Origin: an uncultured Granulosicoccaceae bacterium
Lineage (GTDB): Bacteria; Pseudomonadota; Gammaproteobacteria; Granulosicoccales; Granulosicoccaceae
Direction: 5' to 3'
DNA length: 55,456 bases
NCBI GenBank assembly: GCA_937928685.1
Contig: CALGJU010000193.1
Span: forward strand, 1 to 55,456
The position numbers were made by a program, and so were the translations under genes. The number at the start of each line of letters is the position of its first letter. Positions within the stretch are counted from its first letter, which is position 1. A model generated the notes under the pieces. It saw nothing but the letters and a program-made list of their open reading frames with translations, had not been told where the DNA came from and made no database searches. Positions 7,107-50,848 of the stretch are shown piece by piece.

Positions 7107-7286
7107 AGAGCGCTTAAAATCCAGCGCCAGAGGCTACAATAATAAGCACCTGGTACTGACACTCGCACTCACCCTTTCGCAGCTCAACAGCCACTGCATG
7201 CCGCAGAGGCAATTCAATATAATATGTAACGCCGTCCACCATTAGTTTGTATACTTTGGCATAGTTTAAACCACAACTTGAACCCT

Positions 7287-7682: not shown

Positions 7683-7838
7683 ATTTTTTTTCTATGTAGA
7701 ACTTACGAGCTATAGTTAGCAACAACCCTATAACAAAGCGCTTATAGAAATAATTTTTTTATAGGTGCAAGTTACTAACAATGAAACTTAAGTGTTAATC
7801 CTTTGTAGACACTTATTTATAAACATCACCTACTCCTC

Positions 7839-7869
7839 CGTTATCTGCCTTGCGGATAACGTTTATCCG
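7839..7869 (+). promoter_or_regulatory. Overlapping alternative hairpins upstream of secreted-protein gene
   Basis: CGTTATC (7839-7845) can pair with GATAACG (7855-7861), while GGATAA (7854-7859) can instead pair with TTATCC (7863-7868). The two pairings exclude each other. They sit about 100 bases before the ATG at 7965 in an AT-rich leader. This could be a switchable leader or simply an operator with repeated half-sites. Confidence 0.25.
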
Positions 7870-7964
7870 TAATGTTATTTTTAATGAACATTAAGTAACC
7901 TTTATATTGCACAGTTCAATTGTGTAACTTTTATTGGTTTCTAACAAGGATAGGGAGATTAGTG

Positions 7965-8804: not shown

Positions 8805-8866
8805 TTTTCTGGTAAATTGCAGTAGCAGTACAATTTTAGTCCAACGTGAACTCCGCTTTAGACGTA

Positions 8867-12643: not shown

Positions 12644-12647
12644 AGCT

Positions 12648-12677
12648 GCAATATACGTGAGTGTTCACGTATATTGC
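12648..12677 (-). promoter_or_regulatory. Palindromic operator overlapping the start region of the MarR gene
   Basis: GCAATATACGTGA (12648-12660) is repeated exactly, inverted, at 12665-12677 (TCACGTATATTGC), with four bases between. It ends four bases before the start codon of the MarR gene and leaves no room for a normal ribosome site. The size and AT content fit a MarR dimer site. A 3'-end hairpin for the NfeD gene upstream is possible but no T run follows. Confidence 0.75.
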
Positions 12678-12691
12678 AAGTAGTTTGCCTG

Positions 12692-13135
12692 TTAATCTTT
12701 TGCCACGTAAAGCTTGATTCCTTCAACAGATACCACACGAGCTGTGTCGCCCGTTTGGATAATTTCGTACTGACCTTCCGCAAGCTCTGCCTGCCAGCTA
12801 CTCCCGGACCACGACACAACACCACCTTCTTCAGCACTAATGTCTTGCTTCACTTTTACTTTCTGACCCACCGCATTGTTGTCAGCAATGCCGGAAGGTT
12901 TCTGCTGCCAGTGTCTGAGTGGTTTATACAGCAAAGCTATTACCGCGATAGAGGCGATTAAAAAAACGCCGGTAGTTGCAATATAGCTGGCATCAGTCAC
13001 CAGCCAGGCAAAGGCCGCCGCGACCAATGCACCAACACCTATAAAAAACAACCAAAAGGTGGTGAACTGAAAAACCAGCAACTCGATCGCAAGCAAGCCA
13101 ACGCCCAGCGTCAAGTACAACCAGAACGGGTTCAT
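12692..13135 (-). CDS. NfeD family membrane protein
   Basis: The 147-residue product has two to three hydrophobic segments in the first 75 residues (LYLTLGVGLLAIELLVF, FWLFFIGVGALVAAAFAWL, and one more), then an OB-fold NfeD domain (about 85-145: AVGQKVKVKQDISAEEGGVV, then GDTARVVSVEGIKLYV). Short NfeD proteins act with SPFH proteins in membrane microdomain or membrane quality-control functions; E. coli QmcA-YbbJ is the closest known pair. The ATG overlaps the stop of the SPFH gene by four bases (ATGA), so the two are translationally coupled. Confidence 0.88.
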   Translation of the reverse strand: MNPFWLYLTLGVGLLAIELLVFQFTTFWLFFIGVGALVAAAFAWLVTDASYIATTGVFLIASIAVIALLYKPLRHWQQKPSGIADNNAVGQKVKVKQDISAEEGGVVSWSGSSWQAELAEGQYEIIQTGDTARVVSVEGIKLYVAKD

Positions 13136-14070
13136 TTCACCACACCCGATGCTGCGTTGCTGGTGTCGACTTTGTCTCTGAGTGAATCAAAGGCGGTATA
13201 TGCTTTAGCCACCATGCTCGCCACGTCACCACCATCACCAGGCAACAACGCAATGGTTCCTTCACGCGCCAATTTGTCAAACGCACTCACGTACTGTTCA
13301 GCCAATTGCTGTGCTACGGCAGCTGACCCACCCTCTGAATTGATCGCAGATGAGATAGTCCGAATGGCCTCGGCTCTGGCGGTAGCTTCAATAGTCATTG
13401 ATTCAGCACTGCCTTGCGCGCGGAGAATCTGCGCCTCCCGATCACCCTCAGCCTGATTAATCTGTGACTGGCGGTAACCTTCTGAAGTGGTGACCGCGAC
13501 ACGTCGCTCGCGTTCAGCACCCATCTGCTTTTCCATCTCTTCAAGAATGGTGGCAGGCGGCTGAATGTCTTTCACTTCATAACGTAATACCTTGGTGCCC
13601 CAGACGCCAGAGGCTTCATCAATAGCATGGGTCACTCGAGCATTAATGTTTTCCCGTGACTCAAAAGTATCATCAAGGGATAACTTGCCAATCTCTGCAC
13701 GCATACTGGTTTGTGCCAACTGTGTGATGGCAAACCGCAGATTATCAACACCGTATGAGGCGGCTTTGGGATCCATTATTTTTAGATACAACACACCATC
13801 AATACTAAGTGGCACGTTATCGCGGGATATCGCCTGCTGTGATGCGACATCCACCGCGAACTCTTTAAGCGAGTGCTTATAAGCCACACGCTCGACGATC
13901 GGAATGGTGATATGAAAGCCCGCAAGCAAGGTGCGATTGTACTTACCAAGACGCTCTACAATATAGGCTTCGTTTTGCGGCACCACGCGAAAAAACGATT
14001 TCGCGAACAGCAGCAATAACACCACGGCACCTGCCAGTAACGCCAGACTCATCGACTCAAACATACTCAC
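13132..14070 (-). CDS. qmcA: SPFH/Band 7 (stomatin-like) membrane protein, QmcA type
   Basis: The protein has 312 residues. One N-terminal membrane segment (about 8-23, LALLAGAVVLLLLFAKSFF) is followed by the Band 7 domain (VPQNEAYIVERLGKYNRTLLAGFHITIPIVERV, with DVASQQAISRDNV) and a long coiled coil with alternating Glu/Ala/Gln (about 190-250). This is the QmcA/paraslipin group, whose members form large oligomeric membrane rings and often regulate FtsH-type proteolysis. It is coupled by a four-base overlap to the NfeD gene. A purine-rich ribosome site (GGAGGAGAAG) precedes the ATG. Confidence 0.9.
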   Translation of the reverse strand: MSMFESMSLALLAGAVVLLLLFAKSFFRVVPQNEAYIVERLGKYNRTLLAGFHITIPIVERVAYKHSLKEFAVDVASQQAISRDNVPLSIDGVLYLKIMDPKAASYGVDNLRFAITQLAQTSMRAEIGKLSLDDTFESRENINARVTHAIDEASGVWGTKVLRYEVKDIQPPATILEEMEKQMGAERERRVAVTTSEGYRQSQINQAEGDREAQILRAQGSAESMTIEATARAEAIRTISSAINSEGGSAAVAQQLAEQYVSAFDKLAREGTIALLPGDGGDVASMVAKAYTAFDSLRDKVDTSNAASGVVK

Positions 14071-14177
14071 TTCTCCTCCGTTATTACCTGCAGATTAAAA
14101 TCACCGCTGAACAAGCACAGTGGTTTCATTAACTTGTTAATGTAGCGACATATCACCACTTTTCAATGGTTTATTTC

Positions 14178-15296
14178 CTATTTTTCAATTGGCAGCAGAG
14201 CATACATTCGACCCTTCTGCTTCATTTCACCCGCCAATAACTCCGCGCGTTTTCCGGTACCGAAAAATACATCAGCACGCACAGGGCCACTGATGGCCCC
14301 GCCTGTGTCTTGCGCCACCATCAAGCGTTGATACGCAGATCCATCAGGCAGGGTTGTATCCAGCCACACCGGTGTGCCCAGCGGAATCACACGTTTATCT
14401 ACTGCAAGGCTTCGCTCTGCAGTCAACGGCACATTAAGCGAACCGCGCGGGCCTTCGTTGATATCTTCACGCAAGTGGAAAAAAACGTAACTGGGATTAC
14501 TGTTTAACACTTCATCAGCGCGGGCAGGATTGTCTTCAAGCCACTTGCGAATGGTGAACAAACTGATATCTTCCAGCGCCACCTCCTGCATCTCTACAAG
14601 CTTCTTTCCAATCGCAAAGTAAGGATGACCGTTTTGATCAGCGTAGTTAACGCCCATCATCGTGTTGTCATCAAGCCGCACCCGACCTGAGCCCTGAATT
14701 TGCAGGAAGAACGATCCGTAAGGGTCATCCACCCAGACTATTTCTTTTCCCGCCAAGGGCTGCGCTTTACCATCTATTATTTCACGCGAGTGAAACGGGA
14801 CAATTTTGTTGCCCTCCAGGCGACCCCTGAGTCTCATGCCTTTTAGATCCGGGTATAGATCTGCCAGTTCTATGGTGAGCATGTCTTCCGGCGGGGCGTA
14901 GATCGGGTAGGCATATTTTTCTGTCTTAGTCAGACTGCCGTTGAGAATGGGTTCATAGTAGCCGGTGATAAGCCCTTCGAGTTTTCCGTACTGACCGTAA
15001 ATTCTGTGCGGTGTGAAATACCGCTGAAGAAACTCGCGTACCTGCCCCTCTGTGGGTGCCTCAAGTGCGGCAACGGCATTGCATATCGGCTTCCAGACGT
15101 CGGCTTTTTTTGTCATCCGTGGGCACTGCGCTTGTATACCCAGATAAGCCTGCTTGACGTTATCAGACTTCCAACTGGGAAGATCCGACCAATCGACCTC
15201 CTTGCCAATGCCCGGCTCGCGCTTCGTCAGATAATTACAGGCACTCAGCAGTGATGCAGTCAGGATAAAAAATACAAGCAGGCGCAGGGTTTTCAA
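14178..15296 (-). CDS. mltA: Membrane-bound lytic murein transglycosylase A
   Basis: This 372-residue outer-membrane lipoprotein starts with a lipobox signal (LLSAC, Cys20). The MltA barrel domain contains ITGYYEPILNGS (about 110-121) and QIQGSGRV; the 3D domain near the C-terminus has VAQDTGGAISGPVRADVFFG with the conserved Asp residues, one of which is the catalytic acid. MltA cleaves the MurNAc-GlcNAc bond of peptidoglycan and forms 1,6-anhydroMurNAc ends. Its length matches the family. It is on the same strand as the large cytochrome gene, 65 bases downstream of it, and probably has its own promoter. Confidence 0.93.
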   Translation of the reverse strand: MKTLRLLVFFILTASLLSACNYLTKREPGIGKEVDWSDLPSWKSDNVKQAYLGIQAQCPRMTKKADVWKPICNAVAALEAPTEGQVREFLQRYFTPHRIYGQYGKLEGLITGYYEPILNGSLTKTEKYAYPIYAPPEDMLTIELADLYPDLKGMRLRGRLEGNKIVPFHSREIIDGKAQPLAGKEIVWVDDPYGSFFLQIQGSGRVRLDDNTMMGVNYADQNGHPYFAIGKKLVEMQEVALEDISLFTIRKWLEDNPARADEVLNSNPSYVFFHLREDINEGPRGSLNVPLTAERSLAVDKRVIPLGTPVWLDTTLPDGSAYQRLMVAQDTGGAISGPVRADVFFGTGKRAELLAGEMKQKGRMYALLPIEK

Positions 15297-15360
15297 TAGA
15301 GTGACAAGCTGTGAAAACCTGAGTGTAACCGCCCTGTTCCCGTTACCACGCAGTTCAACA

Positions 15361-18300
15361 TTATTGTAATGCTGTCACTCGTGTACGACGACGATACAGG
15401 CAAAAGCCAGCCATGCTTAAGACCACCGAAAACAACGGATCAAACGCGGCCGCAGAGTTCAATACACAACCACCCGATCCACCCACTTTAAAAGCGCCCG
15501 AAAAGAGCGTCCTGTCATCTGCACCATCGTTATTGCTGTCGACAAATCCACTATCCTGTGAGTCAAGCTGACCATTGCCGTCACTGTCCAGGTATTGCCA
15601 TCTGCTACTGGTGATATCAAACGGACCCGCGCCATCATTTAAAGCATTAGTACTTTCAAGATCATACAGATCACTGAGTGAGTCACCGTCTGTATCAGGC
15701 GGTGCGATCAACGCGCCACGCCGCTGTACGTTGTCAATCAAACCATCCAATCCCTTGTCGGTGCCACCCGCCTCCTGTACGTCAGCCAATGTGTCACCGT
15801 CACTATCCAGATCAAAGCGATTGGGGATACCATCGGCATCAATATCCGGACTGGCCGCGTCTTCTATTGAATCCGGTACGCCGTCGTTGTCATCATCGAT
15901 GTCTGCGTTATCACCCATGCCATCAGCATCGTTATCACTGACTTCATTGCTATCAAACGGAAAGGCATCCAGGGTGTCCGGAACCGAGTCGTTATCATCA
16001 TCCTCATCCAGCGTATTCGGCAGCCCGTCACCATCGTTGTCGATGGTGGATGTTGCACGCGGTTCTGATTGATCAATTTGCAACAGGTAGGCAACAAGAT
16101 CATTCATGTCCGCAGTGCTCAAGCTGGCTACATTAAAGCCCACCTGCAAAGACCGATGTGCTCGCACGGCAGCCGCCAGGTCCGGAGCAGAACCATCATG
16201 CAGGTACGGCGCACCATCCCAAAGGCCGCGTAATGTCGGTGTATCCAGCCCATTGGCCACCAGCGCCTGCCCCAGCCTGCTGCCTGTATCAGCGTCGACT
16301 GTGCCTATGTTGTGAAACTGTTGCTGCGGGCTGTCAGTAAATTCATCGCCGCTATGGCATTTGGCACAATTCGCCTCTCTAAACACTTTATGGCCGCGAT
16401 CGGCTGCCGCACCTCTTTGCGATGCAGATACCCGATACGGGCTGTCTGAAAACGAATCAAGTGAGGATACAAAGCTTGCCAGTGCATCCAGCCGTTCACT
16501 TAAGCCTGCTTTCGGATTGTCTGCATCCAATATGCCGGAGGTGAGATTGTACTGATCATCCGTCAGCAACCCGGTGCCATCAAAGATCTCTCTTATATCG
16601 CTTTCGAAATCGTGTATCTCATCAAAGTTGGCGGTCCAATGTATGTTGCCGTGCAACAGTCCTCCACGACCGCGAAGATCAATGGTATTACGCAAGCCTT
16701 CACCTGCATCTGAGAAGTCCCAGGTGCGGCCATCATGACCGCCCTCTGAATGACAGACTGCACAGCTTATATACTTTTGACCGGTAAGTGCTGCATCTGC
16801 GGCATCATGAAATAGCCGCTTGCCGAGCAGTATTCGGGCATCAAGAATTTCACTGCCAACCGTATCTATTGTGCGCAGTAAAATCGCGTTGTCAGACGCA
16901 CCGTTCAAAAGTTCGGTAAGGTCAAACACTGACACTGTTCGTGACAAGGTATTGTCTACATACAGCTGCGTGCCGTCTTCCGACAGCGCGAGGCCCTGAG
17001 GCGCAAAGCCGACATCGGTTGAAAAAATAATCTCGCCACTATAAACATCAAATATTTCCAGCAACCTGCTCGCTTCATGCACAATAAAAAGATAATTACC
17101 GGTGGGTCCGACAACGATTGCTGTAGGCGGGCTGTTGTTGTCGAAATCAATGCGTTTATCGAGCAGCTCTTCGCCTGTTGTGACGTTAAGTGTTGCCATC
17201 ATACTGCGCACAAGCATATTGTGCTCACGTGAGTTACCATCACGCATAGAACCACGATAAATATTATCGAGCTTGGCCGCGACAAAAGCATCGCGACCAT
17301 TGGGTGATAGCGCAGGCGCCATTAAGTAGTTCGGAACCCCTCTGGCACTGCGATCAGTATCTTCTACGTTGTTGTACGGCAGTCGTATGCGAGCTTCCAC
17401 AGATAGTGTATCCGCTCTAACACTAATTACCTCACCACCGCCATCAGTGCTAACTTGCCGGCTACTTTCCCCGGCCATCGGCGCCGTAATAAAGCGCGCC
17501 ACATACAGGCGACTGCCGTCAGCGCTTAGCGCAACATGCCGCGGGTGGTCAACAATTTTAACGCGCGCTACTTCGGCTTGCGTAGCGATACTGAGCTTGA
17601 CCAGCTCCCCCGTACCTTCAAGTACCAGATAGACAAACCCGCCACTAGTGTCTGCCACTATTCCATGCGGTTTCGCACCAGGCTTGAACTCGATCTGATC
17701 CACCATCGATAAAGAATCAGTGGATAACAACGAGACACTGGAAGACGCTTTGTTAGTCACCCAGACAGTGTCACCCGCAACAATCAGATTCTTCGGCGTA
17801 GCACCCACTGCTATTTCCGCCAGTCTCTGACCCGTTGCTGAGTCCAGCACAGAGACACTATTATGGTCCGCGTTAACCACCCAGATATTCCCGCTATGGC
17901 TAATCAACGATGAAGATGATTGCGATCGGCCTGCCACCAAAGATTCATGCACTCGATGATTCAACGTTACCTGATCACTGCCAGAATCATTGCGCGCGCT
18001 CACACTGATGAGATAGCGGCCCGGGTTTTGATACACGTGAGTCGCCATCGGCTCGGTGGTATTGGCCACCACGCCATCTCCAAAGTCCCACTCATAAGCG
18101 ACATCAACCCCGGTTAACAACTGTGCAGTAATGTTCACTGCAGCACCTGCCTCAGAAGGTGTTGTCTGTATGGCTTCAAGCTCAATCACTTTTGTGGGCG
18201 CGTCATTAAGGTATACGCCATAACGACGTTGATGCGCGACAAACAGATCCATATTACCGTCACCATTAACATCGAGAATTCTGGCGTCCATTGACTCATC

Positions 18301-40478: not shown

Positions 40479-41702
40479 ATGCCAGAAAACACTCAGTCGA
40501 ACGACCCTCAAATCACTGCGCATCAAAAAGATCACTCTGACACAAGCGTCACGTGGCAGAAATTCTCGGTACCGTTTGACTATCCGGTTTATTTCACAGA
40601 ACGGTTATTTGACCCACAAAACACGGTTCTACTTGACACAGTCAATCGCTTCGAGCCAAACAAACGCCATAGAATCATCGTTTTCGTTGATGGCGGTTTG
40701 CTTGAAGTACGGCCCGAACTCCCACGCGAGATACAGGCCTACGCCGACTTCCACAGCGACTCACTTGAATTGGTCACCGCCGCTATAACAATGCCTGCAG
40801 GCGAAAAGATCAAAGCCGAGCTGCACTTTATCGAACAAATGCAGAAAGCGATGGCAGAGCACCACATTGACCGCCACTCTTACGTGTTGGCTATTGGTGG
40901 CGGCGCACTGCTCGATGCGGTAGGACTCGCGGCGGCAACCTCTCATCGTGGCATCAGACACATTAGAGTTCCCACCACTGTATTGTCTCAAAACGATTCC
41001 GGTGTCGGTGTAAAGAACGGCGTCAATCTGTTCGGACAAAAAAACTATATCGGTACTTTTGCACCACCGTTTGCGGTATTGAACGACTACGATTACATTC
41101 GTTCGCTTTCGCAACGGGATAAAATAGCGGGCATGGCAGAAGCAGTGAAGGTAGCGCTGATTCGCGATGCAGACTTCTACCAGTGGCTGGAACACAACGC
41201 TGATGCACTGGCGATCTTCCAGGAAGACGCCATGAAGTATATGATCAAACGGTGCGCTGAACTGCACATGCAACAGATCGCACACGGCGGCGACCCTTTT
41301 GAGACCGGTAGTGCCAGACCCCTTGACTACGGCCACTGGGCAGCCCACAAACTTGAAATTATCACCCGCTATCACTTGCGGCACGGCGAAGCAGTCGCTA
41401 TTGGCCTTGCGCTCGATACACGCTACTCAGTACTGAGCGGATTGCTCGCACATGGCGAGGAGAATCGGGTCTGCTTCCTGTTGGAACACCTTGGTTTTAA
41501 ACTGTGGCATCCAGGCTTGATCACCAAGTCCCCCGATGGTCAGCTGACAGTGTTACGCGGGCTCACAGAATTTCGGGAGCATTTGGGCGGCGCACTTACC
41601 ATCACCCTTTTGGAAAAGCTCGGCAGCGGCGTAGAAGTACACAAGATGGATGACGAGCTGGTGATGCAAAGCATACAATGGCTAAAAGCGCGTTGCGACT
41701 AA
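40479..41702 (+). CDS. eboD: EboD: sugar-phosphate cyclase (3-dehydroquinate synthase-like)
   Basis: The 407-residue protein has the dehydroquinate-synthase fold: GGGALLDAVGLAAATSHRG (NAD binding), VPTTVLSQNDSGVGVKNGVN, and zinc ligands Glu221, His286 and His302, with the 16-residue spacing of the last two as in DHQS. Where DHQS has NFGHTxGHAIE this reads DYGHWAAHKLE, the signature I associate with the EboD subgroup of sugar-phosphate cyclases, not with AroB. So a different cyclitol product is expected. It starts the run eboD-eboA-eboB-idi and is 39 bases before eboA. Confidence 0.87.
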   Translation: MPENTQSNDPQITAHQKDHSDTSVTWQKFSVPFDYPVYFTERLFDPQNTVLLDTVNRFEPNKRHRIIVFVDGGLLEVRPELPREIQAYADFHSDSLELVTAAITMPAGEKIKAELHFIEQMQKAMAEHHIDRHSYVLAIGGGALLDAVGLAAATSHRGIRHIRVPTTVLSQNDSGVGVKNGVNLFGQKNYIGTFAPPFAVLNDYDYIRSLSQRDKIAGMAEAVKVALIRDADFYQWLEHNADALAIFQEDAMKYMIKRCAELHMQQIAHGGDPFETGSARPLDYGHWAAHKLEIITRYHLRHGEAVAIGLALDTRYSVLSGLLAHGEENRVCFLLEHLGFKLWHPGLITKSPDGQLTVLRGLTEFREHLGGALTITLLEKLGSGVEVHKMDDELVMQSIQWLKARCD

Positions 41703-41741
41703 TACCCGCTCCGCCGAAACCATACGCACCGTGGGATCACC

Positions 41742-42641
41742 ATGACAAGCAAAGCCGTAGACCTGCTGGAGCAATGGCTCGGTCATCGACTCAAAGATGA
41801 CCATTCAAGCTGGCTGCAATCTCAGCTGAAAAAAGTTCTAACGTCAAACTCTGACCGGGAACTACACATCACCCTGGGGCTTATACCGCGTAAACTAGGC
41901 CGCGAAGACCTCAATCTGACTCACTCAGAACTCACGGAGGCGAACAATGCGATAAGCGGCTGGAACCCCGGGGACTGGAGCATCGACTGTGCTGCACGTA
42001 TAGCAGTGTTGTGCCGACTGTCAGAACACGACAAAGAAGGCTTTGGCGACACTATCACCGACCTCTGTCGCAACGCTGACCTGGCAGAGTCCATCGCACT
42101 CTACAGCGGCGTAGCGCTTTTTCCAGACAGCGAACAGCTTGACCAACAAGTCGCCGAAGGCCTGCGCACCAACATGCGTGCGGTCTTTGAGGCAATTGCA
42201 CACAACAACCCCTACCCTGCGAATCATTTTGATGAGAACCGATGGAATCATATGGTGCTCAAAGCACTATTCATCGATAGCACCCTAGCGCCCATCTACG
42301 GTATTGATCAGCGCAGCAACAAAGAACTCGCTATTATTCTATGCGACTATGCACATGAACGCAGGGCTGCTGGGCGACCGGTCACCGCAGAATTGTGGCG
42401 TTGTGTCGGACCACACGCGACTAATGCAATGATTGACGACTTACAGCTAACTGCCGGGTCAACCATTGCTACAGAGCATCAGGCCGGAGTGCTGGCACTT
42501 AGCCAGTGCAAAGATCCCCTTGTTCAGCAACGAGCTCATGAACTTACTGCGTCCTACCCTGAAACTATGGCTGAAATAGTCAACGGCACAATTACATGGG
42601 ACGTTATTTATCAGCGCCAACAGCACCAGTCAGGTAATTAG
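41742..42641 (+). CDS. eboA: EboA family metabolite-traffic protein
   Basis: The 299-residue product is mostly helical, without a signal peptide or membrane segment. It matches EboA by position and general pattern (a helical repeat-like protein with GLIPRKLGREDL near the start, and a conserved NRWNHMVLKALFI region). No catalytic motif is visible and the biochemical role of EboA is unknown. It lies between eboD and eboB, as in other Ebo clusters, with two bases between its stop and the eboB start. Confidence 0.8.
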   Translation: MTSKAVDLLEQWLGHRLKDDHSSWLQSQLKKVLTSNSDRELHITLGLIPRKLGREDLNLTHSELTEANNAISGWNPGDWSIDCAARIAVLCRLSEHDKEGFGDTITDLCRNADLAESIALYSGVALFPDSEQLDQQVAEGLRTNMRAVFEAIAHNNPYPANHFDENRWNHMVLKALFIDSTLAPIYGIDQRSNKELAIILCDYAHERRAAGRPVTAELWRCVGPHATNAMIDDLQLTAGSTIATEHQAGVLALSQCKDPLVQQRAHELTASYPETMAEIVNGTITWDVIYQRQQHQSGN

Positions 42642-42643
42642 TT

Positions 42644-43570
42644 ATGATGTTTATTGACCCTCACGCTCACATGATCTCACGCACCACCGATGATTATGAA
42701 GCGATGGCTGCCGCGGGCGTGGTCGCTGTGATCGAACCATCATTCTGGGTCGGACAACCCAGAACACACGTTGGCACCTACATAGATTATTTGTCCGCGA
42801 TCATAGGTTTTGAGCGCTTTCGCGCCGGCCAGTTCGGCATTCGGCACTACTGCACCGTGGGCCTCAATTCCAAAGAGGCAAACAATGCAGAGCTAGCGGA
42901 AGCGGTGATGGAAATACTGCCGCGTTTCGCACTCAAGGAAGGTGTAGTAGCGATTGGTGAAATCGGCTATGACGAACAAACAGAGCTGGAAGACAAGTAC
43001 TTTAGATTACAACTGGAACTTGCCAAGGAACTAGATCTACCTGTCATGATCCATACACCACATCGGGACAAAAAACGTGGCACCTCACGTTCAATGGATG
43101 TTTGCGAAGAGCACGGCATGGATCCATCAAAAATTATCGTTGACCACAACAATGAAGAAACCGTTCGTGAAGTGCTGGATCGGGGCTATTGGGCCGCATT
43201 TTCAATCTACCCTTCTACCAAAATGGGTAACTCCCGTATGGTAGATATACTGACCGAATATGGCGCAGAAAGAATCATGGTTGACTCCGCATGTGACTGG
43301 GGAATTTCAGAACCACTCGGTGTGGCGAAAACCGCACGCCTTGCATTGGAACGTGGCATACCCGAAGAGCAGGTTCGTTTGGTCTGCTATCAAAACGCAC
43401 TGAGTGCCTACGGTCAAAGCGGACAAATGAGTGAAGACCACTGGTTAAATCCAGCCGCTATTGACCAGCGCACAGTCTACGAAGGCAACTCCATATTGCG
43501 TGGCGGTCGTGAACCGTTGGTTGAGGATGCGGCCGTTAAACGAAATGCAAATAATTTAATTATCGAATGA
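42644..43570 (+). CDS. eboB: EboB: TatD-like metal-dependent hydrolase
   Basis: A TIM-barrel amidohydrolase of the TatD type, 308 residues. Metal ligands expected for the family are visible: FIDPHAHM at the start, GEIGYDE (about 106-112), MIHTPHRD, VDHNNEE and VDSACDWG near the end. This longer, EboB-type subgroup is distinct from DNase TatD. It overlaps the idi gene by four bases (ATGA) and immediately follows eboA. The substrate is unknown. Confidence 0.88.
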   Translation: MMFIDPHAHMISRTTDDYEAMAAAGVVAVIEPSFWVGQPRTHVGTYIDYLSAIIGFERFRAGQFGIRHYCTVGLNSKEANNAELAEAVMEILPRFALKEGVVAIGEIGYDEQTELEDKYFRLQLELAKELDLPVMIHTPHRDKKRGTSRSMDVCEEHGMDPSKIIVDHNNEETVREVLDRGYWAAFSIYPSTKMGNSRMVDILTEYGAERIMVDSACDWGISEPLGVAKTARLALERGIPEEQVRLVCYQNALSAYGQSGQMSEDHWLNPAAIDQRTVYEGNSILRGGREPLVEDAAVKRNANNLIIE

Positions 43571-44142
43571 ACAACAGTTCCACGCCAGAAAGCGCTTTAC
43601 AAGATATTGGTTTGCATGAGCAAATAACCGCAATTGAAAACCTGTCTGCCAAAAGTTTTTACGCCATAGACAAACTAGAAGCGCATATAAAAAATATTCC
43701 ACACGTAGCAATATCCATTTTCGTCTTTCACGAAGATCGCCTGCTGCTACAACGGCGCGCCGGAACCAAATATCACTCGGCAGGCCTGTGGGCTAACACA
43801 GTGTGCTCCCACCCAAGATGGAATGAAAGCGTACACGATTGCGCTCAACGTCGCTTAAATGAAGAGCTCGGCTGGCAAGTCCCGCTGCAAAGGTTTGGTT
43901 CGATCGACTACGCTGCAAAAGTGGGGGAATTGTTTGAAAACGAACATGTGCACTGCTTCCATGGCAGTCACAACGCGAAAAACAATGTTGAAACCTTTAA
44001 CCCCGCAGAAGTCGATTCCATCGAGTGGCTGACCATCTCTGAAATATTAGATCAAATCAGTAAGCGACCGGAAACATTCACTGAATGGTTCAAAATCTAC
44101 ATGACCAATCACAAACAAATGATTAGCGCGCTTCTAGTCTAA
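43567..44142 (+). CDS. idi: Isopentenyl-diphosphate delta-isomerase, type 1
   Basis: Idi interconverts isopentenyl and dimethylallyl diphosphate. The 191-residue protein shows the NUDIX box (CAQRRLNEELGW), the active-site Cys80 in WANTVCSHP, the metal ligand His82 and a Glu in NEHVHCF (about 126). This is the form found in many gammaproteobacteria in addition to the MEP pathway. It is coupled to eboB by a four-base overlap, which ties isoprenoid supply to this cluster. I do not know an Idi gene as a usual part of Ebo clusters. Confidence 0.9.
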   Translation: MNNSSTPESALQDIGLHEQITAIENLSAKSFYAIDKLEAHIKNIPHVAISIFVFHEDRLLLQRRAGTKYHSAGLWANTVCSHPRWNESVHDCAQRRLNEELGWQVPLQRFGSIDYAAKVGELFENEHVHCFHGSHNAKNNVETFNPAEVDSIEWLTISEILDQISKRPETFTEWFKIYMTNHKQMISALLV

Positions 44143-44337
44143 GCCCTTCCGCACATCACGTTGCAATCGTTTATTACCAATCTGCACTTGAACTGCAGTC
44201 GTATTCATTTTTCTATTCTTCAGTTCAATCATGTGATAACGTCCTCTGCTATGCGAATGTTTTTCGCATTACGCGCTTAACAGCGCAGCAGCTAATACAC
44301 GCAAGTGTACTAGCCCAACAACCCGGAGGAGAATCCC

Positions 44338-45642
44338 ATGCAGTTGAATAAACTGTTGATGGCGGCCGCATTGAGCACAGCCTTATGTACCGTTGCCCCT
44401 GCACAAGCCGAATCTGTAAAAATCAAACTTGAACCCTACGTCACCGGTCTCAATTCACCTTTGGCAATGGTTCAGCCAGATGGCGATGACCGTAAATTCG
44501 TTATCGAACAATTTGGCCGCATAAGAGTGATCAACGCGGAAGGCAAACTCGAAGCCACAGCTTTTCTAGACATACGCAACTTGATCGTAAAACAGTTCTC
44601 AGATTTTGACGAACGCGGTTTACTCGGCCTGGCCTTTCATCCCGAATTTAAATCCAATGGTAAATTCTACGTCGCCTATAGCGGGCACTTGGATTTCGAC
44701 GCAGACCTCGGTAAAGAATTCTGGTGGGATCACACCAACACGGTAGCCGAATTCACGGTTTCATCAGAGGATCCAAACGTTGCAAACCCTGCATCAATGC
44801 GAATCATTACTGCCACTGACTGGCCACAGTTTAACCACAACGGTCACTGGATCGGCTTTGGTCCTGATGGCATGCTTTACATCAGCATGGGGGATGGCGG
44901 CTACGCTAATGACTGGGGTATAGGCCATAACGTTACTGAAGGCAACGGGCAGGATCTAACGACCCACCTTGGTAAAATTCTACGTGTTGATGTAAACAAC
45001 ACAGAGAATGGTAAAAACTACGCCGTCCCTTCTGACAATCCATTTGTCGGCAGAGATGACGCACAGCCTGAAATCTGGGCATATGGCTTACGTAACCCGT
45101 GGCGCTGCTCTTTCGACATGGAAGACGGCAAGCTGATGTGTGGTGACGTACAGCAAAACAGCTTCGAAGAAATTGATGTCATCGAAAAAGGCGGCAACTA
45201 CGGCTGGCGCATGATGGAAGGCAAACACTGCTTTGAATACACAACTCCTGATGATCATCCGGCAGTGTGTGATACGGCGGGCTTAATTGAACCCGTCATG
45301 GAATACAACAACTGTACTGCGCAGCCAGACGGTTGTAAGGGTATTTCAGTCACCGGTGGTTATGTTTATCGTGGCGCGGTAGACGCCTGGAAAGGTAAGT
45401 ACATTTTTGGTGACTGGAGCCAATCTTTCGCTTCAATGAAAGGCCAGGTGTTTGTTGGCTCACCCGGTGATGACGGAGCATGGGAGATGAGTGATACCGA
45501 GGTGGTTAACATGCCTGGTGACAGACCTTACATCCTGGCCTTCGCGCAGGATGCTGAAGGTGAAGTTTACGCATTAACTTCAATCACTACCGGCCCTGTT
45601 GGTTCACTGGATACTATCTATAAGGTCGTCCCAGCAGAATAA
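44338..45642 (+). CDS. Exported PQQ-dependent sugar dehydrogenase family protein
   Basis: A signal peptide ends in APAQA (about residue 24). The 434-residue protein has the six-bladed propeller pattern of soluble aldose sugar dehydrogenases: LNSPLAMV, ERGLLGLAFHPEF, FNHNGHW with the likely catalytic His167, MGDGGYAND, LGKILRVD, YGLRNPWRCSFD and GGNYGWRMMEGKHC. PQQ is the usual cofactor; two extra Cys-containing loops are present. GGAGGAG precedes the ATG. A terminator follows, and then a di-haem cytochrome gene that may accept its electrons. Confidence 0.87.
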   Translation: MQLNKLLMAAALSTALCTVAPAQAESVKIKLEPYVTGLNSPLAMVQPDGDDRKFVIEQFGRIRVINAEGKLEATAFLDIRNLIVKQFSDFDERGLLGLAFHPEFKSNGKFYVAYSGHLDFDADLGKEFWWDHTNTVAEFTVSSEDPNVANPASMRIITATDWPQFNHNGHWIGFGPDGMLYISMGDGGYANDWGIGHNVTEGNGQDLTTHLGKILRVDVNNTENGKNYAVPSDNPFVGRDDAQPEIWAYGLRNPWRCSFDMEDGKLMCGDVQQNSFEEIDVIEKGGNYGWRMMEGKHCFEYTTPDDHPAVCDTAGLIEPVMEYNNCTAQPDGCKGISVTGGYVYRGAVDAWKGKYIFGDWSQSFASMKGQVFVGSPGDDGAWEMSDTEVVNMPGDRPYILAFAQDAEGEVYALTSITTGPVGSLDTIYKVVPAE

Positions 45643-45666
45643 ACACCAACTTGTAGCAATAGATAT

Positions 45667-45693
45667 AACTGCCCACGCTATGTGGGCAGTTTT
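45667..45693 (+). terminator. Intrinsic terminator after the sugar dehydrogenase gene
   Basis: AACTGCCCAC (45667-45676) pairs with GTGGGCAGTT (45682-45691) around a five-base loop and is followed by TTTTATAT. It lies 25 bases after the stop codon at 45642. Confidence 0.88.
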
Positions 45694-45766
45694 ATATGCA
45701 CAAACTGACTCCAATATCCCTGGTATTATCTCTAACGATTAGCAAACTAATCGCGAGCTGAAAAAT

Positions 45767-46513
45767 ATGAAAGCTGTCTTCCTTTGTACTCTGTTGTTCT
45801 CAACGCTATTCGCACAACAAGCCCACTCCGCTCCTAATCCCGTCAAAGGTGAAGCGCTTTTTAAGCAATGCACCAGTTGCCACGCCATTGGAGAAGGTGC
45901 AGCCCATACTGTGGGACCGACTCTAAACCACGTGTTTGGTCGAATTGCAGGTAAAGCCGATGGATACACAATCTACTCCGATGCAATGCGTGCAAAAGGC
46001 GAAGATGAGGAACTCCTTTGGGATGAGAAAAGCCTGTATATTTTTCTTGCAGGCCCTGCGCGCTACATCCCGGGCACCACTATGGGGTTTGCAGGCTTAC
46101 GCAAAGAACAGGAACTAAAAGACCTGCTCGCCTATCTGATTAATTTTTCACCTGCTTACGAGCCAGAATCCAGCACCGTCGTTAGCGCTGACGCAATTGC
46201 CGCCACCACACTTCCAGTGTTAAAAGCTGACGATGAAGAAGAAGCTCCAACATTCGATGAAGACTACCTTGCTAATGCTGAAGCCATCACCAGCGGCGGT
46301 GAGTTGTGGGCCAAGCAATGCCGGCACTGCCACGGCAACTCTGCATACCCTGGTAAAGCACCGAAACTTAAGCCAGCCCGATACAAACCAGAGTTTGTTT
46401 TTAACCGGGTGACCGACGGGTTTAGAAAGATGCCAGCATGGAAGAGCGTTTTCACATTAGACGAACGAAAAGCCATTGTTGCCTACGTACTAAGCAGACA
46501 ATTTTCTCCATAG
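45767..46513 (+). CDS. Exported di-haem cytochrome c
   Basis: A signal peptide (ends HSAPN, about residue 22) precedes two cytochrome c domains. The first has CTSCH at 35-39 and class I features (VGPTLNHVFGRIAGKADGYTIYSDAM, LAGPARYIPGTTMGF with a Met ligand); the second has CRHCH at 185-189 and a later Met in RKMPAWKSVF. An acidic linker (ADDEEEAPTFDED) joins them. It follows the sugar dehydrogenase gene, but a terminator and about 120 bases separate them. A shared electron path is inferred. Confidence 0.88.
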   Translation: MKAVFLCTLLFSTLFAQQAHSAPNPVKGEALFKQCTSCHAIGEGAAHTVGPTLNHVFGRIAGKADGYTIYSDAMRAKGEDEELLWDEKSLYIFLAGPARYIPGTTMGFAGLRKEQELKDLLAYLINFSPAYEPESSTVVSADAIAATTLPVLKADDEEEAPTFDEDYLANAEAITSGGELWAKQCRHCHGNSAYPGKAPKLKPARYKPEFVFNRVTDGFRKMPAWKSVFTLDERKAIVAYVLSRQFSP

Positions 46514-46583
46514 CCTTTGCCTGACGCTGAAACGCACTGGCCGACGAGAACGAAAAGAATTATACAGCGTCAATACCCGGGGT

Positions 46584-46606
46584 AACCCAAAGCGTGAGCG
46601 AGGGAT
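46584..46606. repeat. REP-like element
   Basis: AACCCAAAGCGTGAGCGAGG followed by GAT is a single copy of the dispersed 24-base element, lying between the cytochrome gene and eboF. Confidence 0.6.
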
Positions 46607-46608
46607 AC

Positions 46609-46668
46609 CTAGTGTACTGGAACAAATAGATCGCACATATGCACACTCTAATTGGTCCAGTACACTAG
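46609..46668. repeat. Inverted repeat between convergent genes
   Basis: CTAGTGTACTGGA (46609-46621) is repeated exactly, inverted, at 46656-46668, with 34 bases between. It follows the REP-like element and lies between the converging cytochrome and eboF genes, so it may act as a 3'-end structure for both. Confidence 0.65.
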
Positions 46669-46737
46669 CTCGCTCAGCTAGTAAAAAAATTTTTTGTAAA
46701 TGACAACATCGGATGGAAACAACCAGACAGAATATCT

Positions 46738-48123
46738 TTAATCGCCGAAGATATGCTTCAACACTAACGCCTTAAATTCAGTCGAGTGCACATCTCCGGA
46801 TGGTAAATGCTCCGCTGATGAACTGATCAACACCGGTCCATGTTGTGGATCATCCGTGGGCCTGCCGTGCGATCCTTTCACCAACTGGGTATCTTTTAGC
46901 GAGATCACATCCAGCAGTGCCCGAAACCCAAGTTTCTTTTTCGCTAGCCGCGAAGCGATCGCCGCCATGGGTATTTTTATTTCAGGATCTATAAATAGCT
47001 CTACCGGGTCATAACCGGGCTTACGATGGATATCAACCGTTCGTGCATAGTCCGGTGCGCGCTCATCATCTAACCAGTAGTAGTAACTAAACCATCTGTC
47101 CGCATGAGAGATTGCCACTAACTCACCGGCCCGCGGGTGATCCAAGCCCCACTCTTTTTTGCCTTCCTCATCCAACACATGCTCAACTCCGTCGAGCTGC
47201 TGCAATAGGGAACGGGTTTGTTCGTAACATTCAGGGTTATTGATATACACATGCGCAAGCTGATGGTCAGCGACTGCAAAAGCATCTGATGCGCCAGCGT
47301 CGAACTGTTCGTGTTGCTTCTCAACACGCACCTTCAATAAACCAGCCTCACGCAGCGCACGGTTGATATGCACGGCATCAGTCACTGGCGTAATACCGTA
47401 CTCAGAAACTATAATGACATGCTGTCCCTGGCTTTCAGCGGCTTCAATTAGTTGGCCACACAATGCATCTACCTGATTCAGATCACGTTGAATGTCCGCG
47501 TGTTCAAGATCTGGCCCATGTCGTTGTAAGTTGTAGTCCAGGTGTGGCAAATAGGTTAGCGTGAGCGTAGGCTCGCGGGTCTCCATCATGTGACAGGTCG
47601 CATCTGCTATCCATTTACTGGACGTGATGTCCGCTGCCGGCCCCCAGAATTTAAACAATGGAAACTGGCCGAACTTGCCGTCAAGCTCATCATGCAACTC
47701 TGCAGGGTACGCATAGTGATCAGGGATTTTACGACCGTCTGCGGGGTACATCGGGCGCGGTGTCGCGCTCCAGTCTGCGCTTGAATACATGTTGTACCAC
47801 CAGAACATTTTCGCACAGGTGAACTCCGGATCTCTGGCTTTACCCGCCTCCCAGATTTTCTCTCCACCCACCAGCTTATTTGATTGCCTCCACAGCCATA
47901 CCTCAGACAAGTCACGAAAGTACCAGCCATTGGCTACAATACCGTGCTCCGTCGGCAATTCTCCCGTCAGTAGCGTGGACTGCGCCGTACAGGTGACGGC
48001 GGGCGTAACAGCGGTCAGTGAACGCATGCCTCCCTTGCGAGCCAGCTTTTGCAGATGAGGGGTATGCTCACCCACGAGCGCCGGGCTAAGGCCGACGACT
48101 AATATTACAAGTGTTTTCTCCAT
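46738..48123 (-). CDS. eboF: EboF: alkaline phosphatase/nucleotide pyrophosphatase-family protein
   Basis: The 461-residue protein belongs to the alkaline phosphatase superfamily: the nucleophile region VTPAVTCTAQSTLLTGELP (Thr as nucleophile), HGIVANGWY, PHLDYNLQRHGPD, and late metal-ligand-type GSHGRPTDD. The first metal-binding Asp of pyrophosphatases (DGL) reads VVGLSP here. No sulfatase CxPxR is present. This pattern fits the phosphodiesterase-like protein of Ebo clusters; the substrate is unknown. It is divergent from eboE and points toward the cytochrome gene. Confidence 0.8.
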   Translation of the reverse strand: MEKTLVILVVGLSPALVGEHTPHLQKLARKGGMRSLTAVTPAVTCTAQSTLLTGELPTEHGIVANGWYFRDLSEVWLWRQSNKLVGGEKIWEAGKARDPEFTCAKMFWWYNMYSSADWSATPRPMYPADGRKIPDHYAYPAELHDELDGKFGQFPLFKFWGPAADITSSKWIADATCHMMETREPTLTLTYLPHLDYNLQRHGPDLEHADIQRDLNQVDALCGQLIEAAESQGQHVIIVSEYGITPVTDAVHINRALREAGLLKVRVEKQHEQFDAGASDAFAVADHQLAHVYINNPECYEQTRSLLQQLDGVEHVLDEEGKKEWGLDHPRAGELVAISHADRWFSYYYWLDDERAPDYARTVDIHRKPGYDPVELFIDPEIKIPMAAIASRLAKKKLGFRALLDVISLKDTQLVKGSHGRPTDDPQHGPVLISSSAEHLPSGDVHSTEFKALVLKHIFGD

Positions 48124-48206
48124 CCGACCATAATACTGACCAAGGCTGTTTTATTGCAACCGTATTCGTGCTTCACTATCAACATGTCAACAGCAAGTTA
48201 ATCAAT

Positions 48207-49409
48207 ATGCATGTGCAACACAGCAACGGTGGTACAGACCACCTTACGTACTGCTCAAATATCCATCCGGGTGAAAGCTGGGCAGAGGTGCTGGGCAACG
48301 TAGAAAAATACATTCCCCTGGTTCGTACCGCGCTCAACTGCACCGATGATTTCGGCATTGGCCTGAGGCTGTCGGCCGCTGCAGTATCAGAGCTTGCCGA
48401 ACCCGACCAACTCAAGCAGTTTAAAAAGTTACTAAAAGATAACCAAAGCTATGTATTCACGATTAATGGCTTCCCGTATGGACCCTTCCATGGCACCCGC
48501 GTAAAAGAAGACGTCTACCTGCCCGACTGGAAAGATCCGGAGCGTTTACGCTATACCAATCAACTGGCAGACGTATTCGCAGAAATTTTGCCCGAAGGCC
48601 AGACTGGCAGCATTAGCACGGTACCTGGTGCTTTCAAAGCCTGTGTCACTAATGATGACGACATCGAATTAATCAGAAGCACTATGGTCAGTCACTGCAT
48701 CCATTTGGCTCAACTGGAGCAGTCGCGTGGCATCAACATTGTCCTTGCACTGGAACCGGAACCCTGCTGTTTTCTTGAAACCATTGCTGAATCGGTTGCC
48801 TTTTTTCAAAATCACTTGTTCAGTACTACCTCTGTTAAACAGCTGCAGGCTGAGATGGATGTAAACTCACAGCAAGCAGAGGCTTTACTGCAAAAGCACC
48901 TCACCCTGTGCCTAGACCTATGCCATGCCGCGGTAGAGTTCGAAGATGCAAAAGCCTGCATAAACTCACTTAAACACGCCAACGTACAAATAGGAAAATT
49001 ACAAATAAGCGCGGGCTTGCGTCTTGAACAGGTCACCCCTGAGCGCGCCGAGCTTCTGCGACCATTTGTAGATCAGGTATACCTGCACCAGGTGATTGAA
49101 AATCACGATGGCAAAATCAATCGTTATACTGATCTTCCAGAAGCGTTTGCCAACCTCACCGATGATAAAAAGCCGCGTGAATGGAGGGTGCATTTCCATG
49201 TGCCGATATTTCTTGACGATCTTGGTGAATTTTCTTCCACACAGTTCTTTATTCGTGAAGCACTTGCACTACACAAACAAGATCCAATAAGCAAACACCT
49301 CGAAGTAGAAACCTACACCTGGAACGTCTTGCCCGATCAATATAAAAACCAGTCAATAGAAGACGCAATAGCACGCGAACTGAACTGGGTACGTGAACAA
49401 CTATCATGA
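48207..49409 (+). CDS. eboE: EboE: xylose-isomerase-like TIM-barrel metabolite-traffic protein
   Basis: From the ATG at 48207 the protein has 400 residues and starts with the EboE-type HLTYCSNIHPGESW; a longer frame from GTG 48111 overlaps eboF and is not family-like. Barrel features include INGFPYGPFHG, ALEPEPCC (Glu ligand), LCLDLCHAAVEFE and WRVHFHVPIF with His, fitting a sugar-isomerase-like metal site. EboE proteins have no defined reaction. The stop overlaps eboC by four bases (ATGA), so the pair is coupled. Confidence 0.87.
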   Translation: MHVQHSNGGTDHLTYCSNIHPGESWAEVLGNVEKYIPLVRTALNCTDDFGIGLRLSAAAVSELAEPDQLKQFKKLLKDNQSYVFTINGFPYGPFHGTRVKEDVYLPDWKDPERLRYTNQLADVFAEILPEGQTGSISTVPGAFKACVTNDDDIELIRSTMVSHCIHLAQLEQSRGINIVLALEPEPCCFLETIAESVAFFQNHLFSTTSVKQLQAEMDVNSQQAEALLQKHLTLCLDLCHAAVEFEDAKACINSLKHANVQIGKLQISAGLRLEQVTPERAELLRPFVDQVYLHQVIENHDGKINRYTDLPEAFANLTDDKKPREWRVHFHVPIFLDDLGEFSSTQFFIREALALHKQDPISKHLEVETYTWNVLPDQYKNQSIEDAIARELNWVREQLS

Positions 49410-50281
49410 GCTGGAACACAAAAACTATCTTGAAGCTTGGCAGGGTATCAAATCTGCCCACCGTGTGGAGTAATGCGCTTGCCGGGGTCGTACTCGCCGG
49501 TGTCAGCCCCTTCAACTTAAATTTGGCAACGCTGATCTTTGCCATGTCTCTTGCTTATGTCGGAGGCATGTTTCTCAATGATGCCTTCGATCGAAAGATT
49601 GATGCCGAAGAGCGCCCAGAGCGACCAATACCGGCTGGCGAAGTAAAAGCCGCAGAAGTGTTTGCAGCAGGTTTTACGCTGCTTGCGGGTGCTGTTTTTT
49701 TCACCTTTCTGGCAGCCTACGGCTGGGGTAGCAATGCGTTCATTGCAACGCTGCTGGCACTGGCGCTATGTGCAGCAATTACACTGTACAACGCATGGCA
49801 CAAAAACAATCCATTAAGTCCCATTGTTATGGGCATGTGCCGTATGTTGGTCTATCTTTGCGCCGCATTTACCGCAACATCAAGCCCATCAGTCATGGTG
49901 TACGTCGGTGCGGTAGTCATGCTCGCCTATCTGATCGGGCTCACCTACGTTGCCAAGCAAGAGAACCTCGGCGAAGTTAAAAACCTTTGGCCCGTAGCAT
50001 GCCTTGCTGTGCCGGCAATTTACGGTATTTATGCATTTTTCAGTGATACGCAAATATGGATAGCGCTGCTTGCATTCATAGCATGGGTAATATTTTGCCT
50101 GTACCTGATCAAAAGAAAAGCAAAGGGGGACATACCCAAAGCGGTCGTGTCTTTGATAGCTGGTATTGCACTGGTTGATGCCATTTTCATCGCCTCCACC
50201 AGCAGCCTTTTGATCATGACCTGTGCATTCGCCGCCTTCCTGGTGACGCTTTTTTTACAGCGATACATTGCCGGTACTTAA
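49406..50281 (+). CDS. eboC: EboC: UbiA family prenyltransferase
   Basis: EboC is an integral membrane prenyltransferase-like protein, 291 residues with about eight or nine helices. The first Asp motif NDxxDxxxD is at 58-66 (NDAFDRKID), followed by ERPIPAG, typical of UbiA. The second Asp motif is replaced by GLTYVAKQEN. It is coupled to eboE. A substrate is not known; transfer of a prenyl group onto a cyclitol or other polar acceptor is inferred from the cluster and from the nearby idi. Confidence 0.87.
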   Translation: MSWNTKTILKLGRVSNLPTVWSNALAGVVLAGVSPFNLNLATLIFAMSLAYVGGMFLNDAFDRKIDAEERPERPIPAGEVKAAEVFAAGFTLLAGAVFFTFLAAYGWGSNAFIATLLALALCAAITLYNAWHKNNPLSPIVMGMCRMLVYLCAAFTATSSPSVMVYVGAVVMLAYLIGLTYVAKQENLGEVKNLWPVACLAVPAIYGIYAFFSDTQIWIALLAFIAWVIFCLYLIKRKAKGDIPKAVVSLIAGIALVDAIFIASTSSLLIMTCAFAAFLVTLFLQRYIAGT

Positions 50282-50311
50282 TCGGTATCAATAACGCTGG
50301 TAACAACCTAA

Positions 50312-50848
50312 ATGCGTAAAAAGACACGATGCGAAGTCGCAGTGATACAGCCACTGGATGAGTTGGAGCAATCAACCCGTCTTGACGTACTTTCGTGGAT
50401 TGATTCCGGAGTTGATATTTGCAGGATAACAAAACCCGCTACCCCTCCGAAGCATCTGATCAGCTACTTCGTACTGGTCGACAATGAACATATTCTCCTC
50501 GTCGATCATATAAATGCCGAGCTATGGCTGCCAACGGGTGGTCATGTGGAACCAGGCGAACACCCCCAGGCAACTGTGCTTAGAGAAGCCTATGAGGAGC
50601 TATCAATCGAAGCTGAGTTTCTGTATGACAAACCGCTGTTTTTATCAATTGTGGATACGGTTGGCATTACCGCAGGGCATACAGACGTTTGCCTCTGGTA
50701 TGCATTGCGCGGTGATCGCAATGCAAATTATACGTTTGATGAGAGTGAGTTTCGAAAAATCAAGTGGTTTCACAAAGATGATGTGCCATTCGATCAAACT
50801 GATGCACATATGCGCCGCTTTCTCGCAAAGCTCTATCCAGAGTCATAA
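50312..50848 (+). CDS. NUDIX hydrolase
   Basis: The 178-residue protein has a full NUDIX box (GGHVEPGEHPQATVLREAYEE), the metal-dependent pyrophosphohydrolase signature. Its N-terminal 60 residues are a less common extension. It starts 30 bases after eboC on the same strand and may be in the same transcript. A role in handling a nucleotide- or prenyl-diphosphate intermediate is possible but not shown; NUDIX substrates cannot be read from the motif. Confidence 0.87.
   Translation: MRKKTRCEVAVIQPLDELEQSTRLDVLSWIDSGVDICRITKPATPPKHLISYFVLVDNEHILLVDHINAELWLPTGGHVEPGEHPQATVLREAYEELSIEAEFLYDKPLFLSIVDTVGITAGHTDVCLWYALRGDRNANYTFDESEFRKIKWFHKDDVPFDQTDAHMRRFLAKLYPES

Follow-up and report, generated by a model that had tools for sequence, protein, structure and literature searches.

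The ebo gene cluster is widespread and its product is chemically unsolved, and the locus described here raises the question of whether that product joins a prenyl group to a cyclitol. The locus lies in a 55,456-nucleotide stretch of DNA (the window) from an uncultured Granulosicoccaceae bacterium (Gammaproteobacteria, order Granulosicoccales; GenBank assembly GCA_937928685.1, contig CALGJU010000193.1), whose 4.2-Mb assembly is incomplete (77%). It contains a complete ebo cluster, with the six genes eboA-eboF co-located at 40479-50281, and within that cluster a gene, idi, for a predicted isopentenyl-diphosphate isomerase (IDI). An isoprenoid-cyclitol Ebo product was already proposed in 2016, in the available part of Yurchenko et al. 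(PMC5133447). Two independent genomic clues now bear on the two halves of such a molecule: apparent recruitment of idi in three lineages points to the prenyl half, and an inositol-phosphate synthase (MIPS) that replaces the Ebo cyclase points to the cyclitol half. As far as our searches show, the linked idi and the cyclase replacement are new evidence for the published idea. The leading reading, which we judge to be modestly probable, is that an Ebo cluster with its own recruited idi is predicted to build a prenylated cyclitol.

The ebo genes were found in many bacterial phyla and on plasmids. In the available parts of the literature, they are also reported from plastids of some algae (PMC5133447), and they affect sunscreen export in Nostoc and nematode grazing on a Pseudomonas (PMC6282210). 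The MIPS replacement names a concrete candidate substrate for EboC, inositol phosphate, and a question open since 2016 becomes directly testable.

Arrangement of the ebo and idi genes in the window and its order

The window cluster consists of a plus-strand run of eboD, eboA, eboB and idi, a minus-strand eboF, and a coupled eboE-eboC pair on the plus strand (Table 1). The eboB and idi genes overlap by four bases, ATGA at 43567-43570, which are shared by the eboB stop and the idi start, and eboE and eboC overlap by four bases at 49406-49409. An earlier note on this DNA, made from the sequence alone, had described both the six-gene layout (a D-A-B run, coupled E and C, and divergent F) and the eboB/idi overlap; the layout was borne out by profile matches, and the overlap was found as described. 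The note had placed the cluster at 40479-50848, coordinates that hold apart from 50312-50848, which is an unrelated Nudix gene. Its account of the ebo and idi genes stood, but it had passed over a GSDH-family dehydrogenase gene and a cytochrome c gene between idi and eboF. The published ebo cluster (PMC5133447; Klicki et al. 2018, PMC6282210) is alike in having eboA-F with the published domain assignments, whereas the window differs from it in gene layout and in the insertion of idi, the GSDH-type dehydrogenase and the cytochrome c.

The order to which the window belongs is a single family, of which 48 genomes were compared (numbered G; loci are numbered L). The idi gene lies beside ebo genes in 25 of the 48, after eboB or eboA. 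The exact four-base overlap is present in 12 of the 25 linked idi, and the remainder are spaced -8 to 125 bases, as measured on the longest open reading frames (ORFs). In two genomes (G020, G034), idi comes after eboA, with no eboB detected in between. A genome of the same genus (G018) has an identical gene order, with 89-99% identity among the ebo proteins and 95% for idi. This shared order, together with the 25 linked genomes, indicated that the cluster with idi is not the result of chance or of an assembly error. Upstream flanks were compared for 19 ebo/idi loci, and a homologue was common to only 20 of 171 locus pairs. Because the surrounding and flanking genes turn over, the idi linkage does not merely reflect slow chromosome rearrangement.

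The window idi reached 102.8 and 96.9 bits, short of the NCBIfam cut-offs of 127 and 105.8, which are naming thresholds and not mechanistic features. It aligned with E. coli-type IDI structures (E about 8e-14), and equivalents of His, His, Cys, His, Glu, Glu and Trp, which we take to be catalytic or metal-binding residues from E. coli IDI, are kept in all 27 ebo-linked idi, the window included. From these residues, the window gene is predicted to encode a divergent type-1 IDI that converts isopentenyl diphosphate (IPP) to dimethylallyl diphosphate (DMAPP). It shares the Nudix family and the catalytic residues with E. coli type-1 IDI (PDB 1nfs, 1hzt), but falls in a divergent clade that, in the tree described below, is composed of idi from the window's family. 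Since ispH was found in 42 of the 48 genomes, the order uses the methylerythritol phosphate (MEP) pathway, and idi is optional in organisms with that pathway. Type-2 IDI was above cut-off in three of the 48 genomes, each time on a contig other than that of the ebo genes found there, and a seed search of the ebo loci for type-2 IDI gave no match.

Linkage of idi to ebo in two further lineages

Outside the family, 88 loci with at least two ebo matches were collected; a duplicate contig (L179, the same as L113) and a locus from the window's own family (L201, the same as L255) were excluded, leaving 86 unique clusters. This survey drew on the best 80 of at least 587 loci and on 10 of 48 plasmid records, with two EboE-bearing genomes from the phylum (G526, G581) left out. 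The earlier note had proposed that other Ebo clusters be surveyed for linked isoprenoid genes, and would have taken their absence everywhere else as refuting its idea. That outcome did not arise: two more lineages have idi within their ebo operons, each in a place different from that in the window. In G140, from another gammaproteobacterial family, idi precedes eboA on a short contig, with the stop/start overlap GTGA. In Hyphomicrobium sp. D-2 it follows eboF, and the overlap is GTGA, or TGATG with a later start. Both linked copies scored above both NCBI naming cut-offs, and each is the only type-1 idi above cut-off in its genome. The G140 linkage came to light when idi was traced onto a second contig, a tracing that covered two genomes only, G140 (linked) and G220 (not linked).

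In a tree of 68 idi proteins (67 of them different), the labels linked and free change three times; all three changes are forced by well-supported branches, and none of 500 shuffles gave a number as low. Taken with the three operon positions, the tree makes three separate entries of idi into ebo operons apparently the simpler reading. To provide a control, a further 28 genes of the window were searched in 89 outside loci, namely the 88 and also L252, a second contig from the genome that carries L109. Seven matches were obtained, none of them within 600 bases of an ebo gene, whereas the two idi matches lie 60 and 63 bases from ebo genes, all of these distances being taken between profile matches and not from gene to gene.

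Prenyl-diphosphate synthases were also considered as linked isoprenoid genes. Three outside loci have one within 600 bases of ebo, and these were given little weight: the enzyme encoded in L110 (G220) most closely resembles octaprenyl-diphosphate synthase, and the two Phytoactinopolyspora loci, L138 and L152, each have one closest to an encapsulin-cargo type. No paper that ties idi or inositol-phosphate synthase to ebo was found in the open-licence PMC literature. In the main text of three ebo papers (PMC5133447, PMC6282210, PMC9235831), "isopentenyl" occurs 0 times and "inositol" is absent.

Replacement of EboD by inositol-phosphate synthase in Actinobacteria

Judged by score and by residues, EboD is not a dehydroquinate synthase (DHQS). 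The window EboD scored 213.3 bits against TIGR01357 (aroB), below the cut-off of 305, and all 72 EboD sequences have His where DHQS 6lk2 has the conserved Lys of E-L-K. An LDxGHWxAHxxE-like sequence of EboD occupies the place of LNLGHTFGHAIE in DHQS 6lk2.

Among the 86 outside clusters, eboD was found in 44, MIPS in 21, both in none and neither in 21. The MIPS-bearing clusters are all from Actinobacteria by record title, and eboD was not found there (Table 1). MIPS usually lies immediately upstream of the EboC homologue. In 16 of the 19 clusters with both mapped, -3 to 33 bases separate their profile matches, and in the other three the distances are 100, 369 and 495 bases. The L212 MIPS matched PF07994 at 161.5 bits and PF01658 at 101.6 bits, and the solved structure closest to it was 1u1i (231 bits), with 1gr0 far behind (35 bits); we take these to be the Archaeoglobus and the mycobacterial enzyme, respectively. 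Against the mycothiol-type model (cut-off 638), the three cluster MIPS tested scored 19-34 bits. Four lysines aligned with 1u1i, to which we ascribe catalytic roles, are invariant in all 21 cluster MIPS.

Because an unrelated cyclase replaces EboD in the same operon, there is good evidence that this slot makes a cyclitol. The replacement of eboD by MIPS supports the cyclitol half of the proposal independently of idi. These SCO3242-type clusters of Actinobacteria resemble the window in having the EboC homologue, EboA, EboB, EboE and EboF in one operon; they differ in that MIPS replaces EboD, in an extra TIM-barrel sugar isomerase, and in that no idi was seen in the 21.

A cyclase was also sought in six upstream ORFs from actinobacterial clusters that showed neither eboD nor MIPS (L132, L141, L145, L167, L184, L188), and none was recognised. 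Three of these ORFs matched FAD-dependent oxidoreductases, one a lectin domain and one sugar-binding proteins, and one had no match; they are the longest ORFs in GC-rich DNA and may include false ones. The three oxidoreductase matches are from Streptomyces loci in which neither cyclase was detected (L132, L167, L184), where the ORFs lie upstream of the EboC homologue, and that of L167 is CrtO-like. The ebo genes of L205, a Ketogulonicigenium plasmid, are flanked by genes for two Gfo/Idh/MocA oxidoreductases and a sugar isomerase (6762-8808 and 15214-16125), which would suit cyclitol chemistry; of the 86 outside clusters, 5 have a Gfo-type gene no more than 2 kb from ebo.

EboC and prenyl transfer

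The earlier note had called EboC a UbiA-type enzyme, which agrees with the PF01040 match and with the first Asp-rich motif but not with the second, which is absent. The first motif, NDxxDxxxD, is present in all 105 EboC sequences aligned (a set that still counts the L113/L179 duplicate), and at least 101 of them retain the invariant Arg, Tyr and Lys. The second motif, which we take to be a defining feature of UbiA prenyl-diphosphate transferases, is replaced by T-x-x-(S/A)-(R/K)-x-E, with Thr kept in 103 and Glu in 102 of the 105. The window EboC scored 129.9 against NF035940, below the cut-off of 250, again a naming threshold; given its intact first motif and fitting operon position, it is called the divergent eboC of this cluster. 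By its sequence, EboC may work like a canonical UbiA prenyltransferase, but it is not classed as one. The nearest solved structure is digeranylgeranylglyceryl phosphate (DGGGP) synthase 6m31 (E 2.6e-7), presumably an archaeal ether-lipid enzyme, whose acceptor we take to be a glycerol ether phosphate. It shares the first Asp-rich motif with EboC, whereas its own second Asp-rich stretch is not kept in EboC.

Prenyl transfer by relatives of EboC has been assayed. In the available part of that report, Ubi-297 farnesylated 6 of 14 aromatic acceptors in crude or enriched membranes with farnesyl diphosphate as donor; the activity was abolished by heating, and a conserved Arg that was tested was not crucial. 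Ubi-297 and its homologues from Zobellia and Algoriphagus farnesylated 8-hydroxyquinoline-2-carboxylic acid (8-HQA). Prenyl transfer by EboC is likely. Short prenyl chains would be worth considering first, because idi mainly raises DMAPP.

Proposed role of the Ebo product

In the proposed pathway, EboD would cyclise a sugar phosphate to a cyclitol, as its family suggests and the actinobacterial MIPS supports. Idi, whose activity is expected from its conserved residues, would convert MEP-derived IPP to DMAPP and so feed the prenyl donor pool, a need indicated only by the repeated recruitment into operons. EboC would then join the prenyl chain to the cyclitol, and EboB, EboE, EboF and the helical EboA may trim, isomerise or present intermediates. 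The resulting prenyl-cyclitol would act at the inner membrane and aid the passage of metabolites to the periplasm, as the published Nostoc mutants suggest, and in the window's clade the pyrroloquinoline quinone (PQQ)-type dehydrogenase and the cytochrome c may act on the delivered metabolite there. A more specific form of this pathway is conceivable, if doubtful: an ether-linked prenyl-cyclitol or a prenyl-inositol phosphate lipid, parallel to archaeal lipids, made by a swappable cyclase (EboD, or MIPS nearest the Archaeoglobus enzyme) and by an EboC whose closest counterpart is the archaeal ether-lipid enzyme, with idi recruited time and again to cover the need for DMAPP, and serving as a general carrier or membrane aid for the movement of secondary metabolites to the periplasm.

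The earlier note had put forward a prenylated cyclitol as the Ebo product. The linked idi in further lineages and the MIPS in place of eboD lend that claim partial support, and several observations weigh against it. No Ebo metabolite is known. Outside the family, idi is linked in only 2 of the 86 unique clusters, and within the order ten clusters with a visible eboB (G002, G022, G023, G024, G025, G026, G029, G040, G046, G047) have no idi adjoining. Among genomes drawn from the class, idi (E<=1e-15) was found in 4 of the 11 that carry ebo and lie outside the family, and in 54 of the 354 that lack ebo, which is no clear association. This pattern marks idi as a repeated optional add-on and not a core part of ebo. 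The tree tool warns that the three label changes could equal one gain and two losses. The 21 outside clusters with neither cyclase also count against a cyclitol, some of them being cut by contig ends, as does the loss of the second UbiA motif from EboC against prenyl transfer, and only aromatic acceptors are named in the available part of the assays on EboC relatives.

Some of these points would also fit an idi gene that serves the general supply of isoprenoids (quinones, carotenoids, undecaprenol) and is merely co-regulated with ebo, Ebo being unrelated to prenyl groups. IDI is a general enzyme, its gene is absent from most ebo clusters seen, and ebo and idi lack a clear correlation across the class; moreover, five genomes of the order (G022, G023, G024, G025, G027) have an idi away from ebo and no more than about 2 kb from a gene for a prenyl synthase. 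General supply is nevertheless rather unlikely, since idi occupies three positions in the ebo operons of three lineages, with start/stop overlaps in the copies shown, stays by eboA in G020 and G034, and persists through the turnover of its flanks. None of the seven control matches adjoins ebo, and G019 has one idi in its ebo cluster and a second elsewhere, which also argues against this explanation.

Two further alternatives concern EboC. It may not be a prenyl-diphosphate transferase at all but have another membrane function, such as moving or presenting cargo, in which case Ebo would mainly be a translocation system, the role put forward on the basis of Nostoc. The replaced second motif, with its conserved Glu, and the recurrence of periplasmic-type oxidoreductase genes beside ebo would fit such a function, and in the available part of the Nostoc study ebo mutants retain the scytonemin monomer in the cytoplasm and do not deliver it to the periplasm, where ScyE acts (PMC6282210). 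We regard this as unlikely, given that the first motif and the invariant Arg, Tyr and Lys are kept, that farnesylation by Ubi-297 is heat-sensitive in the published assays as far as they are available, and that repeated idi recruitment is hard to explain without a prenyl demand; translocation and a prenyl lipid are, moreover, mutually compatible. Alternatively, the metabolite prenylated by EboC could be aromatic or a quinoline, with a separate cyclitol branch, as the farnesylation of 8-HQA by Ubi-297 and its two homologues would suggest. That separation seems improbable: in the part available, the assays were made on crude or enriched membranes with a selected set of aromatics and showed the conserved Arg not to be crucial, and in most actinobacterial clusters with both mapped MIPS is immediately upstream of the EboC homologue. 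A prenylated cyclitol stays our leading candidate.

Other ebo genes and neighbouring genes

Table 1 Coordinates of the genes at the ebo locus of the window, followed by the loci that carry MIPS or an isolated EboE relative
Feature	Coordinates	Strand	Profile match or loci
eboD, sugar phosphate cyclase-like	40479-41702	+	NF004852 588.5 bits (cut-off 333)
eboA, all-helical protein	41742-42641	+	NF035938 (EboA domain) 163.4 (cut-off 50)
eboB, TatD-like metal-dependent hydrolase	42644-43570	+	PF01026 66.8 bits
idi, predicted divergent type-1 isopentenyl-diphosphate isomerase	43567-44142	+	TIGR02150 96.9 bits
GSDH-family (PQQ-type) dehydrogenase	44338-45642	+	PF07995 135.1 bits
Cytochrome c, two c-type haem domains	45767-46513	+	PF00034, PF13442
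eboF, NPP/alkaline-phosphatase superfamily hydrolase	46738-48123	-	PF01663 211 bits
eboE, TIM-barrel "metabolite traffic" protein	48207-49409	+	NF035939 470.3 (cut-off 250)
eboC, UbiA-superfamily membrane protein	49406-50281	+	PF01040 68.3 bits
Nudix hydrolase, outside the ebo cluster	50312-50848	+	PF00293 57.4 bits
MIPS clusters			L129, L134, L137, L138, L140, L146, L150, L152, L155, L161, L162, L169, L180, L182, L187, L194, L195, L198, L204, L212, L214
Planctomycete EboE loci			L135, L136, L139, L148, L153, L154, L158, L163, L165, L168, L176, L186

Against the longer EboA family model, NF035937, the window EboA scored 243.2, below the cut-off of 320. Its AlphaFold model (mean pLDDT 97.1) is almost entirely helix, and a fold search with the model against the PDB gave no match at E<=0.001 and a weak resemblance to helical-repeat proteins. 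Homologues of eboB are present across the fetched loci, and eboF bears a weak resemblance to structures of nucleotide pyrophosphatase/phosphodiesterase enzymes. The eboE ORF opens at 48111, but it matches the family profile only from 48243 on, which makes the ATG at 48207 the probable start. The Nudix gene makes up the final 537 bases of the stretch in Table 1, and among loci L065-L124 a homologue at that place was found only in G018. In a scan for promoters and terminators, sites were no more frequent than in shuffled sequence.

EboE was found in 42 of the 48 genomes of the order (39 above cut-off) and in 11 of 365 other genomes drawn from the class. Several loci from the window's family (L101, L102, L103, L104, L118, L123 and L255) have an eboE-like gene around which no other ebo gene was detected, with 40-42% identity to the window eboE where measured. 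In G019, G043 and G045, such an orphan gene is extra to the cluster's own eboE. The idi-bearing cluster of G020 (L091) has neither eboB nor eboE detected, and the sole eboE match of that genome is of the orphan type, on a separate contig (L118). Planctomycete loci likewise have an EboE relative with no other ebo gene detected nearby (Table 1), which suggests a separate role for this TIM-barrel protein.

The GSDH gene and the cytochrome c gene lie by ebo in eight genomes of the order (G000, G018, G009, G008, G003, G014, G006, G005), and the same pair is by ebo in G140 (L109) and in a Roseobacter assembly (L203). Among solved structures, the window GSDH protein is best matched by hedgehog-interacting protein and soluble glucose dehydrogenase B. 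Of the 86 outside clusters, 7 have a gene for a GSDH or PQQ-type dehydrogenase no more than 2 kb from an ebo gene. The gene pqqC was not found in the window's own genome, which is 77% complete, and was found in 27 of the 48 genomes of the order; given this pattern, the window GSDH protein may be described only as a predicted quinoprotein. The recurrence of the dehydrogenase and cytochrome genes, together with the Nostoc finding, would fit a role for ebo in bringing something to periplasmic oxidation.

Other neighbours were seen on plasmids. In L208 (a Mycetohabitans plasmid, 4051-7069) and L211 (an Aureibacter plasmid, 3043-6103), a large unknown gene and a ferritin-like gene precede ebo, and a similar ferritin-like gene lies near ebo in a Sulfitobacter assembly (L197). 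In L212, a Streptomyces plasmid, a gene of the ScyD/ScyE family, an aromatic prenyltransferase and a multicopper oxidase lie beside ebo (4221-5423 and 12645-16447), neighbours that recall the scytonemin setting, here outside the cyanobacteria.

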